A stretch of DNA of 20,855 bases from a virus. The stretch lies in the IMG/VR virus record IMGVR_UViG_3300037137_000530, positions 1-20,855 of that record. One strand, 5' to 3'. Below the pieces are notes generated by a model. It was not told the DNA's origin and ran no database searches. It was given only the letters and a program-made list of their open reading frames with translations. Positions 5,055 through 11,034 of this stretch are shown one piece after another (position 1 is the first letter of the stretch; each line of letters opens with the position of its first letter). Position numbers and translations under genes: made by a program.

Positions 5055-5134
5055 GTTCGTGACAAGCACATAGGTTTTTTGCCGGGCGGCGGGTCCGTAA
5101 GCGAAAGATCAGCGCTAACAGACGGAGATCATGA

Positions 5135-5179
5135 GCGCACAAACCACTACATCGTGTGGATTGTGCGTTTTTCGTTTTT
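5135..5179 (+). terminator. Terminator-like hairpin or attenuator before the protease-capsid gene
   Basis: CGCACAA (5136-5142) pairs perfectly with TTGTGCG (5161-5167). Inside, after one A-A mismatch, CCAC (5144-5147) pairs with GTGG (5156-5159), leaving an 8-base loop. The 3' foot runs into TTTTTCGTTTTT. This is the form of a Rho-independent terminator, although CG interrupts the T-run. It lies only 3 bases before the GGAGGTG ribosome binding site of the downstream gene, so it may work as an attenuator or partial terminator, or as a stabilising 5' end. A weaker dyad, GTGCT (5045-5049) with AGCAC (5065-5069) followed by TTTTTT, lies upstream in the same gap. Confidence 0.6.
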
Positions 5180-5196
5180 ATCGGAGGTGCAAACAA

Positions 5197-7386
5197 ATGG
5201 CGGAAATGATGAAAAAAGAAATGGACGGCGATCATCCCGCTAAACATTACCTGGTCGTTGACGATCCGCAAACCGTGACCACCTGGCACTTACGTGTTAT
5301 GGGCATGGATGGCAAGCCGGATCATACCCTGATGGGTGCTGCCTGGGCAGCCCTACACGGCGGTTATCGTGGCAGCAAGTACGAGGGACCGAACAAACAA
5401 AAAGCCATCGACAAACTGACCGCGTTGTATGCCAGTGAGAACATGAACACGCCAGGCAAGACGCGCACCGTTGAGGAATGGCTCGCGGGAGAGATGAAAG
5501 TCGGGCGTACCATCAGCGCGGATACCGCGACCCAACTTCAATCCATTTTGGACATCGTAACTAAACTGCTCGGATTGGAAGAAGCGGACGCCGCGGAAGA
5601 CGCCGCCGAACCCCAGGGCATGATGAGCATGAACGAAACCCTGGTCCAATTCGGTGATGCGGTCAAGGCCATTTCAACTGATGATGGTAAGGTCAAAGTA
5701 GGCGGTTACCTGGTGCGATTTACCCCCAGGGGTGACTATGACGCCTCTTACAATCGGGACCGGTTCGACAAAACCACTGATTTTGACTTTGACTTTCCCG
5801 GAAAGTCCACGGCTTATTTCAACCATGGGCTGGATAACACCCTAAAAAAGCGGCGGCTTTCCCCTGTCATACTGAGCGCGGATGACGTGGGCATCTGGGC
5901 CGAAGGATTGCTGGATGAGCGCGACAAGTACGAGGCGATCCTCGCCGAGCTTGCCAAAGATGGCCTGCTCGGTTGGTCGTCCGGCGTACCTGCCCATCTA
6001 GTGGACCGTGAGAAAGAGGGCAAGGGTCATCTGATCACTTACTGGCCGCTGGGCAAAGACGCTTCTTATACCCACACCCCGGCGGAGCCGCGCAACGTGG
6101 TACTACCGCTCAAGTCGTTACATATGACCCCCGCTAAATTGCAGGAGTCAATTGAATCTAAACCAATTAATCATGAGGAGTCAGAAATGCCAGAAATCGA
6201 CGTTAAAACGAGTTTACAAGACGCGGCTAAGGCCGAGGCCAAAGTCTACATGGATGCCTTCATCGAGGAATTCAAGCGGACTGCGCCTGCTACGATCAAA
6301 GCCAGCATGGCGGTGCAGGTAACGCAGGACGAGGCCGACATCCCATTCAAAACCATGGGCGCGCAGCTCGCGGCGGTCAAACAAGCGACCCTGACCCAGG
6401 GCCGTGAGCTTGCCCCACGACTCAAGGCGCTCAATATCAAGGCGCTGGGCGCGAACGAGTTGATCGGTTCGGAAGGTGGCTTTTTGCTCGAGCCAACCTT
6501 TGCCGCCGCGTTGCTCACCCCCGTGCATGCTACCGGGCCATTTTCCAGCCGGGCGTCAAAGCTGCCTATCGGTCCCAACTCCAACGGCGTAACCGTGCGG
6601 GCGGTGGATGAAATTAGCCGTGTGGCTGGCGCTCGCTGGGGTGGTATCCAAGGCTATCGCCTGAACGAAGCCGGGACCGCAACCGCTTCCCAGCCAAGTT
6701 TTCGGCTGGTCGAGTTGCGGCTCAAAAAATACGTGGTGTTATGCTATGCCACGGAAGAATTGATGATTGATACGATTGCGTTGGGTGCGATCATGCAGCA
6801 GGGCTGCTCGGAAGAATTTGACGTGCTGGTCAATGAAGACATCGTCAACGGCACCGGCGTCGGCGGTCCGCTGGGGATCATGGCCTCCCCCGCCCTAATT
6901 TCGGTAACGAAAGAGAGCGGGCAGGCGGCTGCCACCATCGTGACGCAGAACATCTTAAACATGTGGAAACGGATGCACCCCGCCAGTAAGGGAAATTCGG
7001 TGTGGTACATCAATACCGACTGCACCAGCCAAATCTACGCTATGAGCATGGCGGTCGGTACGGGCGGTATGCCGATGTTTATGCTGCCTGGTTCCCTGCC
7101 CAATTCTCCCGCCGGAACCTTGATGGGTCGCCCGGTGATCGAGACCGAGTACAACCAGACCTGCGGCACCACGGGCGATATCATCCTCGCGGACATGAGC
7201 CAGTACGCCATGATTGACCGGGATGTACAGAGCGCGAGCAGCATCCACCTGCAATTCTTGACCGACCAGCTCGCCTTCAGGTTTATCTATCGCTGCGACG
7301 GACAGCCAAAAGTGGCCTCGCCGCTGACCCCACTGCATGGTTCCAACACCCTCAGCCCATTTGTCGCGCTCAACACTCGTGCATAA
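5197..7386 (+). CDS. Fusion: small N-terminal domain, prohead protease and HK97 major capsid protein
   Basis: This frame encodes 729 residues in three parts. Residues about 12-88 form a compact domain (HYLVVDDPQTVTTWHLRV, then LMGAAWAALHGGYRG) that I have no firm name for. Residues about 160-320 are an S78/U35-type prohead protease, with His210 in FNHG and a Ser in GWSSG (Ser261 probable nucleophile). Residues 331-729 are an HK97-fold capsid protein with an N-terminal scaffold-like helix (331-420), the usual GSEGGFLLEP transition and a C-terminal core (GGPLGIM, IILADMSQYAMIDRD). GGAGGTG nine bases upstream selects this ATG; a frame-compatible ATG at 5131 has a poorly spaced GGAG and would place the upstream hairpin in coding sequence. 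The protease would cut the scaffold segment from capsid subunits. A second start inside the gene probably makes capsid protein alone. Confidence 0.88.
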   Translation: MAEMMKKEMDGDHPAKHYLVVDDPQTVTTWHLRVMGMDGKPDHTLMGAAWAALHGGYRGSKYEGPNKQKAIDKLTALYASENMNTPGKTRTVEEWLAGEMKVGRTISADTATQLQSILDIVTKLLGLEEADAAEDAAEPQGMMSMNETLVQFGDAVKAISTDDGKVKVGGYLVRFTPRGDYDASYNRDRFDKTTDFDFDFPGKSTAYFNHGLDNTLKKRRLSPVILSADDVGIWAEGLLDERDKYEAILAELAKDGLLGWSSGVPAHLVDREKEGKGHLITYWPLGKDASYTHTPAEPRNVVLPLKSLHMTPAKLQESIESKPINHEESEMPEIDVKTSLQDAAKAEAKVYMDAFIEEFKRTAPATIKASMAVQVTQDEADIPFKTMGAQLAAVKQATLTQGRELAPRLKALNIKALGANELIGSEGGFLLEPTFAAALLTPVHATGPFSSRASKLPIGPNSNGVTVRAVDEISRVAGARWGGIQGYRLNEAGTATASQPSFRLVELRLKKYVVLCYATEELMIDTIALGAIMQQGCSEEFDVLVNEDIVNGTGVGGPLGIMASPALISVTKESGQAAATIVTQNILNMWKRMHPASKGNSVWYINTDCTSQIYAMSMAVGTGGMPMFMLPGSLPNSPAGTLMGRPVIETEYNQTCGTTGDIILADMSQYAMIDRDVQSASSIHLQFLTDQLAFRFIYRCDGQPKVASPLTPLHGSNTLSPFVALNTRA
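6175..6189 (+). promoter_or_regulatory. Internal ribosome binding site and in-frame start for the major capsid protein
   Basis: GAGGAG is followed after six bases by ATG, in frame with the long protease-capsid gene. It lies exactly at the domain boundary, after the protease and before the scaffold-like helix (MPEIDVKTSLQDAAKA). Initiation here would give a 399-residue capsid protein ending at 7386 without protease. Capsid protein is needed in hundreds of copies and protease in few, so such a nested start would solve the stoichiometry problem. The alternative reading is that the motif merely encodes His-Glu-Glu-Ser-Glu-Met by chance. Confidence 0.7.
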
Positions 7387-7397
7387 AGGAGCATGAA

Positions 7398-7898
7398 ATG
7401 CCAGTAAACTTTTGTTTTCCTGAAAATTGCAAAGTTGTAAACGGTTATGCTCCCCGTGTTGGGGCAGCCGCCGCGGTCACCGGGGCTTATATCAGCCTCA
7501 AGAACATCCAGCGAGCCTGGGTTGTGTTTCACTACTTCCAGGCTGACGCCAACGCTATCACGTTCAACGTACTCAAGGCGACTGACGTTGCGGCAAGCGG
7601 CTCGATCGCGACCGATGTTCTTATGCCGATCTGGTCCAACCTGGCCTGCGCCGTCAGTGACTTGCTGGTCCGGCGCACGGATGCCATCAGTTATGCGGCG
7701 GGCACCGGTGCGGCTTCCAAAATGATTATCATGGAAGTCGATCCAGATGCTTTGGGACAATTGGCCGGGGTGCAGTATGACTGTATCGCGGGGTATTCGA
7801 CCGCCATCGCTGCTGCTCAGTATCTGGGCATCACCTACGTGTTGCAGCCGCGCTACCAATCTCGTGTCTTGACCCAGCCGACCGTCGTGACTGACTAA
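7398..7898 (+). CDS. Putative head decoration or minor structural protein
   Basis: The 166-residue product has no catalytic motif and no membrane segment. It is rich in Ala, Val and Thr, alternates short beta-prone stretches (VTGAYISLKNIQRAWVVFHY near residues 27-46) and ends with a beta-rich tail (YLGITYVLQPRYQ). This composition and the place directly after the major capsid gene suggest a capsid decoration or other virion structural protein. AAAGGAG lies ahead of the ATG and overlaps the capsid stop codon region. I do not recognise a named family, so the function is inferred from position. The 48 bases after its stop hold a GC-rich hairpin and the ribosome binding site of the next gene. Confidence 0.6.
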   Translation: MPVNFCFPENCKVVNGYAPRVGAAAAVTGAYISLKNIQRAWVVFHYFQADANAITFNVLKATDVAASGSIATDVLMPIWSNLACAVSDLLVRRTDAISYAAGTGAASKMIIMEVDPDALGQLAGVQYDCIAGYSTAIAAAQYLGITYVLQPRYQSRVLTQPTVVTD

Positions 7899-7912
7899 CA
7901 CCAGATGCCGAA

Positions 7913-7934
7913 GGGCGGGTGTAACAGCCCGCCC
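7913..7934 (+). promoter_or_regulatory. Intercistronic hairpin 1 abutting a ribosome binding site
   Basis: GGGCGGG (7913-7919) pairs perfectly with CCCGCCC (7928-7934) around the loop TGTAACAG. AAAGGAG begins at the next base and ATG follows at 7947. There is no T-run, so this is not an intrinsic terminator. The same design recurs at 8943 and 10365. A role in translation tuning, mRNA processing or mRNA stability is inference. Confidence 0.75.
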
Positions 7935-7946
7935 AAAGGAGAAAAC

Positions 7947-8429
7947 ATGCCAATCTATACCCAAGATAAACGGAACGCGCAAGCGGACGTGACGTTAGGG
8001 TTGCGCGTGGATCGTGCGGCGGCGCTGGTGGTTACGGGCACGAACAACATCTTCACCATCACCGGCGGGCGCGTGCTGCTGACCTGCCTGCTGGGCGAGA
8101 TCTCGGTACAAATCGCAGCTACCGCCACCACCCTGCAAATCTCCAGCCTTCGAACCGACGTGACTACGCCAGTGGCTACTGTGCTGGATATCGCCTCGGC
8201 TGATATCCAATCCATGGCTCCAGGGCGCATGTTCACCCTGCCCGACGCGGTAGGTTCGGCCTTGACCATCTCGACCGGATCAAGCGCGGCGCTGGTGACC
8301 AAAGTGCGCTACGTTATCCCAACCGGAGCGTTGCGGCTGGTCGCCTCGGCCTCGCCCGCCACCGGCACGGTCAAATGGTCGGTATGGTACTGGCCCATTG
8401 ATGATGGCGCTTACGTAAGCGCGGCTTAA
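7947..8429 (+). CDS. Putative virion structural protein A (first copy of a tandem pair)
   Basis: This 160-residue beta-rich protein carries GLRVDRAAALV near the N-terminus (about residues 18-28), GGRVLLTCLLGE (about 40-51) and ends with GTVKWSVWYWPIDDGAYVSAA-like sequence. The same landmarks in the same order occur in the next gene, so the two are clear paralogues from tandem duplication. No signal peptide, membrane span or catalytic motif is visible. Location among capsid and head-tail genes suggests a capsid decoration, spike or neck protein. The start is set by AAAGGAG five bases before the ATG; an upstream in-frame start would translate through hairpin 1 and is rejected. Confidence 0.65.
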   Translation: MPIYTQDKRNAQADVTLGLRVDRAAALVVTGTNNIFTITGGRVLLTCLLGEISVQIAATATTLQISSLRTDVTTPVATVLDIASADIQSMAPGRMFTLPDAVGSALTISTGSSAALVTKVRYVIPTGALRLVASASPATGTVKWSVWYWPIDDGAYVSAA

Positions 8430-8442
8430 AGGAGACGATAAA

Positions 8443-8928
8443 ATGCCACAATATAACGAGGATTCAAGCGCACGGCAGTTTATCGCCGACAACATCGGCG
8501 GGTTACGGGTTGACCGTGCCGCCGCGTTGGTTACTGCCGCCACTGTTGCCCTATTCAATGTCGTCGGCGGGCGGGTGCTGCTGCTCAACTTCCTGGGCGA
8601 GGTCGCCACCATCATGGACGGGACCGCTTGTACACTGCGTATCCAGGCATTGACCACGGATGCGACCGCGGTGCAAACGTTCCTCACCTCCGCGGTGACC
8701 GACTGCGCCAACGACACAAAGGGCACGATGTACACCCTACCGGCGGCGGTTGCCTCTGACCTGGTCAAGTCTACCAACAACAGCGCGGCAGTATCCAGCA
8801 CCCAAACGCCACTGGTAATCAAAACGGGGGCGTTGAATTTGATAGGGGGCGGTGCGAGTGCAGGCACGATCAAATGGTCAGCCTGGTACATCCCGCTGGA
8901 TGACGGCGCGTACATGGCGGCGGCCTAA
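8443..8928 (+). CDS. Putative virion structural protein A' (second copy of a tandem pair)
   Basis: This 161-residue protein is a diverged copy of the preceding one: it shares GLRVDRAAALV, GGRVLLLNFLGE and a near-identical C-terminal pattern (GTIKWSAWYIPLDDGAYMAAA differs mainly at hydrophobic positions). By eye about two-fifths or more of positions agree. The middle is more divergent (CTLRIQALTTDATA). It has its own AGGAG site nine bases before the ATG and only 13 bases separate it from the first copy, with no hairpin between them. Two related proteins may form hetero-oligomers or occupy different virion sites; this is not shown by the sequence. Confidence 0.65.
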   Translation: MPQYNEDSSARQFIADNIGGLRVDRAAALVTAATVALFNVVGGRVLLLNFLGEVATIMDGTACTLRIQALTTDATAVQTFLTSAVTDCANDTKGTMYTLPAAVASDLVKSTNNSAAVSSTQTPLVIKTGALNLIGGGASAGTIKWSAWYIPLDDGAYMAAA

Positions 8929-8942
8929 ATCGACTTTTTATG

Positions 8943-8962
8943 GGGGGGTAGCAATACCCCCC
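8943..8962 (+). promoter_or_regulatory. Intercistronic hairpin 2 with GCAA tetraloop abutting a ribosome binding site
   Basis: GGGGGGTA (8943-8950) pairs with TACCCCCC (8955-8962), closing a GCAA loop, which belongs to the very stable GNRA class. AAAGGAT starts at the next base and ATG follows at 8978. There is no T-run. The arms share no sequence with hairpin 1 beyond being G-rich and C-rich, but the architecture is the same. Confidence 0.75.
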
Positions 8963-8977
8963 AAAGGATAAAAATAA

Positions 8978-9655
8978 ATGGCACAAAATACGACTGATGT
9001 TTATGGCAACACGCGGGCCACTACTGAGATTTTTAACGGTAGTCAAGGCCAGGAAGCCCCGATGTTGTTTAACAATCGCGGTGATGAGCTCGTCGCGCAG
9101 GCACTACCCAGTAAAGCTGAATTGACCCGCATGGGCGCCATGTGGACCATGCGTACTGCCACCGGCTCCGTGTTTACCGCGGTGGTTGGCTTGCCGACCA
9201 CCCTGGCCGTGGCAATCCTGTACAATGGCGAGCCCTCCGGTGGCAAGTCCTACGTGATTGACAGTGCTTTCTATCTCAACTCGGCAACCAGTTTTGCTGC
9301 GGTCAACCAGGTCGCGCTGATTGCGCAACTCCAGGGACCGGCGGTCGCCACCAAGCCGACCGGCTCGACCACTACCACCATAATCAACTCATGCAACGGC
9401 AAACCCACCTATGGCGGGGCGGCCTTGCGGGCGATCAACGTAACCACGATGGTCGCGGATTATTGGACCGTGCTTGCGCCATCCTCGACCACTACCGCCG
9501 CCGCGACCTTGGGCCTGGGCGTCTATGCCGAATTATGGGGCGGGTTTATCGTGCCCCCTGGCGGCGCTTTTGGCATCAACCTGGTTTCTGGTATCGTCAC
9601 CGGTACGGGCATCGTGGGCATCACCTGGGCGGAAGTTCAACTGGCGCTGGGATAA
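8978..9655 (+). CDS. Putative virion structural protein B (first copy of a second tandem pair)
   Basis: This 225-residue protein is Ala/Thr/Gly-rich and beta-prone, with landmarks FNNRGDELVAQALPSKAEL (about residues 31-49), NGEPSGGKSYVID (about 82-94), TTAAATLG and the C-terminal run GINLVSGI followed by GITWAEVQLALG. The next gene shares all of these, making a second tandem pair next to pair A/A'. No enzyme motif or membrane span is seen. It is probably a head or neck structural component; no named family is recognised. Hairpin 2 and AAAGGAT precede the ATG. The stop codon is embedded in the AAGGAGAT site of the second copy. Confidence 0.65.
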   Translation: MAQNTTDVYGNTRATTEIFNGSQGQEAPMLFNNRGDELVAQALPSKAELTRMGAMWTMRTATGSVFTAVVGLPTTLAVAILYNGEPSGGKSYVIDSAFYLNSATSFAAVNQVALIAQLQGPAVATKPTGSTTTTIINSCNGKPTYGGAALRAINVTTMVADYWTVLAPSSTTTAAATLGLGVYAELWGGFIVPPGGAFGINLVSGIVTGTGIVGITWAEVQLALG

Positions 9656-9668
9656 GGAGATATCCATA

Positions 9669-10349
9669 ATGGCAAATACAACGACTGATGAGTTTGGAAT
9701 TGTAAGGGCCGTTGCGGATATCTATAACCTGCCGCAAGGCGGTGACATCCAGATGACGTTCAACAACCGCGGCGACCAGCTCTATGCGCAGGCGCTTCCC
9801 CCCAAAGCGGAGATCGTGCGCATGGGTTACATGTGGACCTGTCGCCAGACTGCCGCCGCTGCCTTCACCCATGTAGCCGCGCTCCCAACCACACGCGCTG
9901 AACTGTTCGTTATGAACAACGAACCGTCGGGCGGTAAATGTTATGTGATCGATACCGTCTGGTCGCTGAACGTCACTACGAGCATGGCGGCGGTCAACCA
10001 GTTAGGGTTGATCGTCCAGATTGTCCCGGCGGCTACCATGGTCGCCCCCACGCATGATGCGACGACCAGCTTTATCGACTCGCGCAATGGCAAGGCGTCT
10101 TACACGGGCAATATGAAACGCGCGGTTGCGCAGGCTACCGGCTGTTTTACCGATTTGTGGACCCTGTTGGCCACGTCAGTTTACACGACCGCGGCTGCCA
10201 CCCTGGGCACCGCGACCTTCGCCGAAGTTTGGGGCGGGCTGATTATCCCGCCTGGCGCCGGTTTGGGTATCAACCTGGTTTCAGGTATCGCGGTAGGAAA
10301 GTCTATCGTGGGCTTTTCCTGGGCTGAGTTACAGCTCCCCCTGGCGTAA
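9669..10349 (+). CDS. Putative virion structural protein B' (second copy of a second tandem pair)
   Basis: The 226-residue product matches the preceding protein along its full length: FNNRGDQLYAQALPPKAEI, NNEPSGGKCYVID, TTAAATLG, GINLVSGI and a similar ending (GFSWAELQLPLA). About half of the positions agree by eye, and stretches around GGCATCAACCTGG are still alike in DNA. The ATG is chosen because AAGGAGAT lies just upstream and the protein then aligns with its paralogue from the first residues; a longer in-frame start inside the first copy is rejected. Function is unknown, probably virion structural. Its 3' end is followed by hairpin 3. Confidence 0.65.
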   Translation: MANTTTDEFGIVRAVADIYNLPQGGDIQMTFNNRGDQLYAQALPPKAEIVRMGYMWTCRQTAAAAFTHVAALPTTRAELFVMNNEPSGGKCYVIDTVWSLNVTTSMAAVNQLGLIVQIVPAATMVAPTHDATTSFIDSRNGKASYTGNMKRAVAQATGCFTDLWTLLATSVYTTAAATLGTATFAEVWGGLIIPPGAGLGINLVSGIAVGKSIVGFSWAELQLPLA

Positions 10350-10364
10350 CTCGCCTTATTGGTA

Positions 10365-10410
10365 GGGTGTGGGATGTTCTCCTTCCTCCCCATCCCACAC
10401 CCAAAGGAGA
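10365..10410 (+). promoter_or_regulatory. Intercistronic hairpin 3 whose loop is complementary to the adjacent ribosome binding site
   Basis: GGGTGTGGGATG (10365-10376) pairs without mismatch with CATCCCACACCC (10391-10402), a 12-bp stem. AAAGGAG starts directly at its foot and ATG follows at 10414. The 14-base loop contains TCTCCTT (10378-10384), the exact reverse complement of AAGGAGA (10404-10410). Loop pairing to the ribosome binding site would give an H-type pseudoknot that hides it. The stem is certain; the pseudoknot is a hypothesis. Confidence 0.75.
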
Positions 10411-10413
10411 CCC

Positions 10414-11034
10414 ATGGCATACGCGGCAAAGGTAGACATCAAAGCGCGGATACCAATATTAACGACTGACACGAGTCAGGATGCGTTTATTGATACCCTG
10501 TGTCTCAATGTCAAGGCGGTGATTGATTCTTACTGTGATAACACATTTGAATCAGTCAACGCGACCCGGAAATTTGACATGCCCCGTAGATCACGCAGGT
10601 TATTGCTGGACGAGTGGATGCTTACATGCACCAGCGTGACCAACGGTAACGGGGTTCTTATTCCTGCTACTGAGTATATCTTGGAGGATTACAACAACCC
10701 GCCATATTACGCTATCGTGTTGACGCCGATCACTTCCTATTATTGGCTGCCGGATACTAAGATGAACCCTCAACGGGCGATAACAGTAGTGGGCACATGG
10801 GGTTATACCGCGACGGCTCCCCTGGACATCCAGGAGGCAGCGCAACGATTGGTAGTTTCGTGGTTCCGCAGCCGGGACGGATTAAATGCCGGACCCACGC
10901 GGGCCATCGTCACCGCCGCCGGGGTTGAGATTGCCTCGACCACGTTTCCCGAAGATGTAGCGGAATTATTGGCTCCTTACAAACGGATTGCGCTGTCCAC
11001 CCAAATCGGGCGCACGTTGGGAGAGTTTTACTAA
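10414..11034 (+). CDS. Head-tail connector (HK97 gp6-like adaptor)
   Basis: Adaptor proteins of this family form a ring under the portal and begin the neck. The 206-residue protein has the expected layout: N-terminal helices after an AYAAKVDIKARIPI opening, a middle beta hairpin with GVLIPATEYILEDYN, then WGYTATAPLDIQEAAQRLV (about residues 130-148), where the GWGY-like segment followed by P.DI..AA is characteristic of the gp6 family. AAAGGAG five bases before the ATG sets the start; the upstream GTG in the same frame lies inside hairpin 3. The next gene begins at the base after the stop codon. Confidence 0.8.
   Translation: MAYAAKVDIKARIPILTTDTSQDAFIDTLCLNVKAVIDSYCDNTFESVNATRKFDMPRRSRRLLLDEWMLTCTSVTNGNGVLIPATEYILEDYNNPPYYAIVLTPITSYYWLPDTKMNPQRAITVVGTWGYTATAPLDIQEAAQRLVVSWFRSRDGLNAGPTRAIVTAAGVEIASTTFPEDVAELLAPYKRIALSTQIGRTLGEFY

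Follow-up and report, generated by a model that had tools for sequence, protein, structure and literature searches.

Three hairpins abutting Shine-Dalgarno sequences between late structural genes of a viral record, as candidate intercistronic punctuation

The IMG/VR virus record IMGVR_UViG_3300037137_000530, whose 20,855 bases (positions 1 to 20,855) are the window analysed here, contains a late structural block with genes for the large terminase, the portal, the capsid protein, a protein of 166 amino acids (aa), two duplicated gene pairs (A/A' and B/B') and a head-tail connector. We examined three hairpins in this block, all on the plus strand and each consisting of a GC-rich stem that follows a stop codon and precedes the Shine-Dalgarno sequence of the next co-directional gene. 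Hairpin 1 (7913..7934, GGGCGGG-TGTAACAG-CCCGCCC) lies between the 166-aa gene, a putative decoration gene, and A; its stem has 7 base pairs (bp), or 8 bp closing a GUAACA loop if an inner U-G pair is included, and it is abutted by an AAAGGAG Shine-Dalgarno and then the ATG of A at 7947 (7935..7949). Hairpin 2 (8943..8962, GGGGGGTA-GCAA-TACCCCCC), an 8-bp stem capped by a GNRA tetraloop, lies between A' and B and runs directly into AAAGGA, followed by the ATG of B at 8978 (8963..8980). Hairpin 3 (10365..10402, GGGTGTGGGATG-TTCTCCTTCCTCCC-CATCCCACACCC), with 12 bp and a loop of 14 nucleotides (nt), lies between B' and the connector gene and is abutted by AAAGGAG, then the ATG of the connector gene at 10414 (10403..10416). 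A preliminary description of this DNA had reported perfect stems of 7, 8 and 12 bp at 7913, 8943 and 10365, each followed by AAAGGA and ATG, and we recovered them at exactly these coordinates.

The string CCCAAAGGA, formed by the stem end and the Shine-Dalgarno, occurs three times in the record, solely at the three hairpins, and beyond it their arms are unrelated. Across 1,000 dinucleotide shuffles of the window, stems of at least 7 bp abutting AAAGGA appeared 0.01 times on average and at most once, against the three observed; the minus strand of the window holds none. The shuffles refute chance for the set as a whole, and we give coincidence practically no credence. Fold stability relative to shuffles is pronounced for hairpins 1 and 2 (z = -2.9 and -2.2, respectively) and less clear for hairpin 3 (z = -1.5). 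No T-run follows the stem at any of the three sites, where AAAGGA comes at once; a terminator scan of the region lists none of the hairpins, and Rfam 15 at its gathering score gives no match within the window. Two in-frame start codons, at 7905 (upstream of hairpin 1) and 10369 (within hairpin 3), would make these two hairpins part of coding sequence. Homologues and a better Shine-Dalgarno favour the start at 7947, and that at 10414 is favoured by its Shine-Dalgarno alone.

The six junctions leading from the capsid gene to the connector gene fall into two kinds. The hairpins occupy gaps of 48, 49 and 64 nt, the sole wide gaps between the capsid gene (5131..7386) and the connector gene (10414..11034, phrog_442). 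The other three junctions, i.e., capsid/166-aa gene (7398..7898), A (160 aa, 7947..8429)/A' (161 aa, 8443..8928) and B (225 aa, 8978..9655)/B' (226 aa, 9669..10349), all again on the plus strand, are tight: they measure 11-13 nt and have a stop codon that shares bases with the Shine-Dalgarno (7384-7391 TAAAGGAG; 8427-8434 TAAAGGAG; 9653-9659 TAAGGAG), pointing to the usual layout of translational coupling within each gene pair. Because the tight junctions appear coupled and the wide ones hold hairpins, the stems set four translation units apart from one another; that two of these are duplicated pairs is incidental. As had been proposed, the members of each pair are true paralogues, with 50% identity between A and A' and 54% between B and B'. 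The hairpins thus stand where they were said to bracket the duplicated pairs, but what they delimit is translation units and not duplications as such. The claim that the gaps inside the pairs lack hairpins is not quite accurate, since the B/B' gap contains a weak 5-bp hairpin (GGATA-AGGAGA-TATCC, 9651-9666) with the B' Shine-Dalgarno in its loop.

We then compared the window with related viruses. Searches in viral contigs found two loci with A' and 80 with an alignment of the A family; B as a single sequence found no relatives there, and a B alignment found 15 loci. A search of named phages with A' as the query gave no match, and a genome scan for A relatives returned two loci only, in Nonomuraea and in an Acidobacteria metagenome-assembled genome. 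At about 80 loci, we folded the intercistronic gaps that measured 25-200 nt and set the results against shuffles. Strong hairpins were found at 38 of 83 junctions touching capsid, decoration, A, B or connector genes and at 14 of 121 other junctions (Fisher p = 7e-8), an enrichment that relies on a home-made gene caller and that persisted under stricter gene criteria (30/60 vs 8/47, p = 5e-4). The arms of these strong hairpins are unrelated between loci; in 29 of the 38 the left arm is G-rich and the right arm C-rich, and at least five T follow within the next 8 nt in one. The distance from stem to Shine-Dalgarno, zero in the window, is mostly 3-13 nt in relatives that are not actinophage-like. 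Placement varies as well: in one relative (L005) hairpins follow both the capsid gene and the homologue of the 166-aa gene, in two others (L031 and L038) they stand around A, and in a fourth (L004) the A genes have no hairpin next to them. Stable loop classes recur, with GCAA in hairpin 2 and UUCG, UCCG and GUAA in relatives, and the GUAACA loop of hairpin 1 is common to the capsid/decoration hairpin of L005, on an unrelated stem. What is conserved is therefore the kind of element and not its position, and direct contact between stem and Shine-Dalgarno is likewise not kept. The proposal that structure rather than sequence is kept holds at the level of the clade, where the enriched stems have unrelated arms, but does not extend to individual junctions, where positions turn over.

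Taken together, anatomy and comparison suggest that the three hairpins are probably, though far from certainly, intercistronic punctuation elements of the late structural-gene mRNA. This is the best supported of the readings considered, given stems that are not due to chance, two types of junction, enrichment at virion-gene borders and the lack of T-runs. A stable stem would stop terminating ribosomes from running on or re-initiating into the next unit, so that each translation unit would start from its own strong site. It might in addition shield the mRNA upstream of it from 3'-to-5' exonucleases and give the unit that follows a clean 5' boundary. The expected outcome is that a single transcript would yield each high-copy virion protein in an amount of its own. 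The sequence of the arms would be irrelevant, the formation of a stem with G-rich and C-rich arms being what counts, and the Shine-Dalgarno right after the stem may represent a packing solution compatible with ribosome binding and not a recognition signal.

Several observations weigh against punctuation or narrow it. Many relatives have no hairpin at the same junction, indicating that the element is not essential, and hairpins near B are sporadic, with few of the 15 loci showing one at the B/connector border. The enrichment speaks for the "late virion region" no less than for "these particular genes", and the two cannot be separated fully because the gene caller is home-made and the genes that carry labels are concentrated in the late region. 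We also considered that the stems keep the ribosome-binding site open, which is unsupported for hairpins 1 and 2. A folding model in which the left arm is kept from pairing shows no lowering of Shine-Dalgarno access there, the values changing from 0.68 to 0.66 at hairpin 1 and from 0.53 to 0.68 at hairpin 2. On sequence grounds, the comparison shows phages repeatedly placing strong hairpins precisely at borders between virion-gene translation units, and an arrangement in which the stem is held while its sequence is free to change would offer a simple, testable design for obtaining separate protein amounts from one transcript.

The preliminary description knew of no named element of this form, a statement that did not survive comparison with phage T4. 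In a 49-kb stretch of T4, the junction between wac and gene 13 reads CAT-GGGGCC-GCAA-GGCCCC-AAAGGA-TTTTAA-ATG, i.e., a stem with G-rich left and C-rich right arms directly abutting AAAGGA, then ATG, between late virion genes, and with the same GCAA loop as hairpin 2. It differs in being a single site among unrelated genes of an unrelated phage; the likeness is convergent and not demonstrated homology. The T4 8/9, 18/19 and 19/20 junctions also hold hairpins, that at 8/9 being a hairpin with a T-run. Tuerk and colleagues reportedly described CUUCGG intercistronic hairpins of T4 in 1988. Phage intercistronic hairpins with stable UNCG or GNRA loops share with the window a GC-rich stem that comes after a stop codon and before the next ribosome-binding site; however, in the window only hairpin 2 (GCAA) has a loop of this type, whereas hairpin 1 (GUAACA) and hairpin 3 (14 nt) do not, and the Shine-Dalgarno of such hairpins usually lies a few nucleotides away instead of in direct contact. 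In a group of six metagenomic phage contigs (L372, L387, L389, L393, L395 and L399), GGGGC-GAAA-GCCCC-AAAGGA occurs two or three times in each contig, always ahead of an ATG; here the same stem is repeated, before other small genes and not before structural pairs. Our literature search, with most subscription papers outside its reach, found no paper on this hairpin form, and the available part of a T4 post-transcriptional review does not cover it.

Pattern searches indicate how widespread the form is. GGGG-N6-CCCC followed within 1-12 nt by AGGAG and then ATG occurs at no fewer than 122 viral sites, with 62 UNCG and 15 GNRA loops among the matches listed; 24 of the 111 listed matches with a downstream open reading frame (ORF) of at least 40 codons have a T-run. 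The same stem followed directly by AAAGGA is found in 62 stretches of the whole IMG/VR collection, and this strict form gives 65 ORF-opening sites, 16 with GNRA and 3 with UNCG loops. Exact abutment is rare, although enriched, because just 2 of 63 gene starts in a sample of the GCCC-AAAGGAG pattern carry a stem of at least 7 bp (0.1 expected). Among 1,817 viral gene starts surveyed, the three of the window included, 13 had a stem that abutted or nearly abutted, where about 3-4 would be expected. Since T4 wac/13 shows the same design and the arrangement recurs in other phages, the window hairpins are members of a kind of phage spacer hairpin that is already known and widespread.

A separate element was found in high-GC, actinophage-like relatives. 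Immediately 3' of their capsid gene stand one or two hairpins in tandem, which have freely varying perfect stems of 5-12 bp and a 10-nt loop, CANUNAMRCC, closed by G-C. Their distance from the capsid gene is at most about 130 nt (L011, L013, L017, L021, L029, L030, L032, L048, L049, L064, L068, L077, L081 and others), and Streptomyces phage Dagobah (MT711977) has two copies (L343:2320-2352 and 2357-2382). Our first scan for the element required pairing, which biased its pair counts, and the fair test used the loop alone. In the 250 nt that follow the capsid stop, the loop-only scan gave 27 matches, of which 22 sit in stems of at least 5 bp. Of 25 matches elsewhere two sit in stems, and these two are just 277 and 336 nt past a capsid gene. 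Loop density was 1.6 per kb after the capsid gene and 0.03 per kb elsewhere (about 49-fold), for a pattern read off the same sites as were tested. Likewise, Dagobah was used in building our covariance model of this hairpin (R1), and its model matches are not independent. Rfam at the gathering score gave no family matches in the conserved-loop loci tested. The CANUNAMRCC hairpin looks like an undescribed RNA element and, as a candidate for a specific regulator, is a better and more promising lead than the window hairpins. The two resemble each other in that variable perfect stems stand at capsid-region junctions of the same clade and several CANUNAMRCC copies abut a Shine-Dalgarno; they differ in the fixed 10-nt loop, and the window hairpins are not members of R1, with no match at E-values up to 10. 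The GUAACA loop of hairpin 1 and L005 fits the core of the CANUNAMRCC loop, a likeness noticed after the fact and weak as evidence. One might suppose that both sets descend from a single family of capsid-junction RNA operators, in which a virion protein would read the loop core NUVAMR and control translation of the adjoining gene while the stems drift. We regard this as a long shot; if true, such a family would constitute an autogenous stoichiometry switch for double-stranded DNA phage heads that is not in Rfam.

Other explanations of the window hairpins have to be weighed against punctuation. They could be weak, T-less terminators or pause sites at which RNA polymerase stops or pauses part of the time, leaving the later units less transcribed. 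Like an intrinsic (Rho-independent) terminator, each is a GC-rich stem after a gene with a G-rich left and a C-rich right arm, and the T-run at T4 8/9, together with those in the listed viral hairpins above, suggests that the two kinds grade into each other. The window hairpins nonetheless lack the T-run that an intrinsic terminator has, meeting the Shine-Dalgarno at once, and were passed over by the terminator scan; with a T-run at one of the 38 strong hairpins of relatives, the original statement that these are not ordinary terminators stands, and we consider termination or pausing unlikely. Alternatively, a phage or host protein might bind stem and loop and block the adjoining ribosome-binding site, as in autogenous control of virion proteins. 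Direct contact between stem and Shine-Dalgarno would suit such occlusion, as would the GUAACA loop shared with L005 on unrelated stems and the clear conservation of a capsid-junction loop in a related clade. The loops in the window, however, are mutually unlike (GUAACA, GCAA and a pyrimidine-rich 14 nt), and the conserved-loop covariance model does not reach them, so that an operator function for these three hairpins appears doubtful, more so than termination.

Hairpin 3 invites a further suggestion, in that TCTCCTT in its loop (10378..10384, plus strand) is complementary over 7 nt to AAGGAGA of the Shine-Dalgarno at 10404-10410. If the stem opened, this pairing might shut the connector gene, and in the folding model keeping the left arm open lowers the unpaired probability of the Shine-Dalgarno from 0.75 to 0.18. 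This would concern a single site, a chance match is plausible in a loop that is nearly all pyrimidine, and nothing is known to open a 12-bp stem, which makes a conformational switch improbable. A pseudoknot between loop 3 and the Shine-Dalgarno was rejected by reasoning and not by computation, as about one base would have to span the 12-bp stem. The hairpins had also been proposed to delimit gene cassettes, and their bracketing of duplicated pairs in the window would fit borders of movable cassettes. We found nothing to support this in the recombination sense: the unrelated arms share no recombination site or core, relatives keep the gene order with and without hairpins, and T4 and other phages show the form without duplicated genes. 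Recombination borders are accordingly very hard to credit.

As a separate observation, a set of viral contigs (L297, L326, L253, L337 and L279) has in common UUCG-capped hairpins between two small proteins, the first beginning MGFATHLGPW or MARTTFxGP and the next MMQTDVK or alike, neither with a PHROG function. Regarding the proteins of the late block, the 166-aa product is a putative decoration protein by its position after the capsid gene, to whose stop its start is tightly linked. The predicted structure of A' is beta-rich (predicted local distance difference test, pLDDT, 73), and in Foldseek it gave weak matches to phage cement proteins (E about 0.02-0.03), namely the KHP40 trimeric cement protein (7dou) and a Carin1 capsid chain (8cjz). 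These matches are in keeping with A' being a high-copy capsid or virion protein, without amounting to proof. The model of B was set aside as too poor to use (pLDDT 41). The ORF of the major capsid protein (PF05065, phrog_10) has an N-terminal extension, a long part of its 751 aa preceding the Phage_capsid domain (residues 449-735); this part looks like a fused prohead protease, a putative identity. In L004 and L005 the capsid gene is shorter and is preceded by a separate protease-like ORF.

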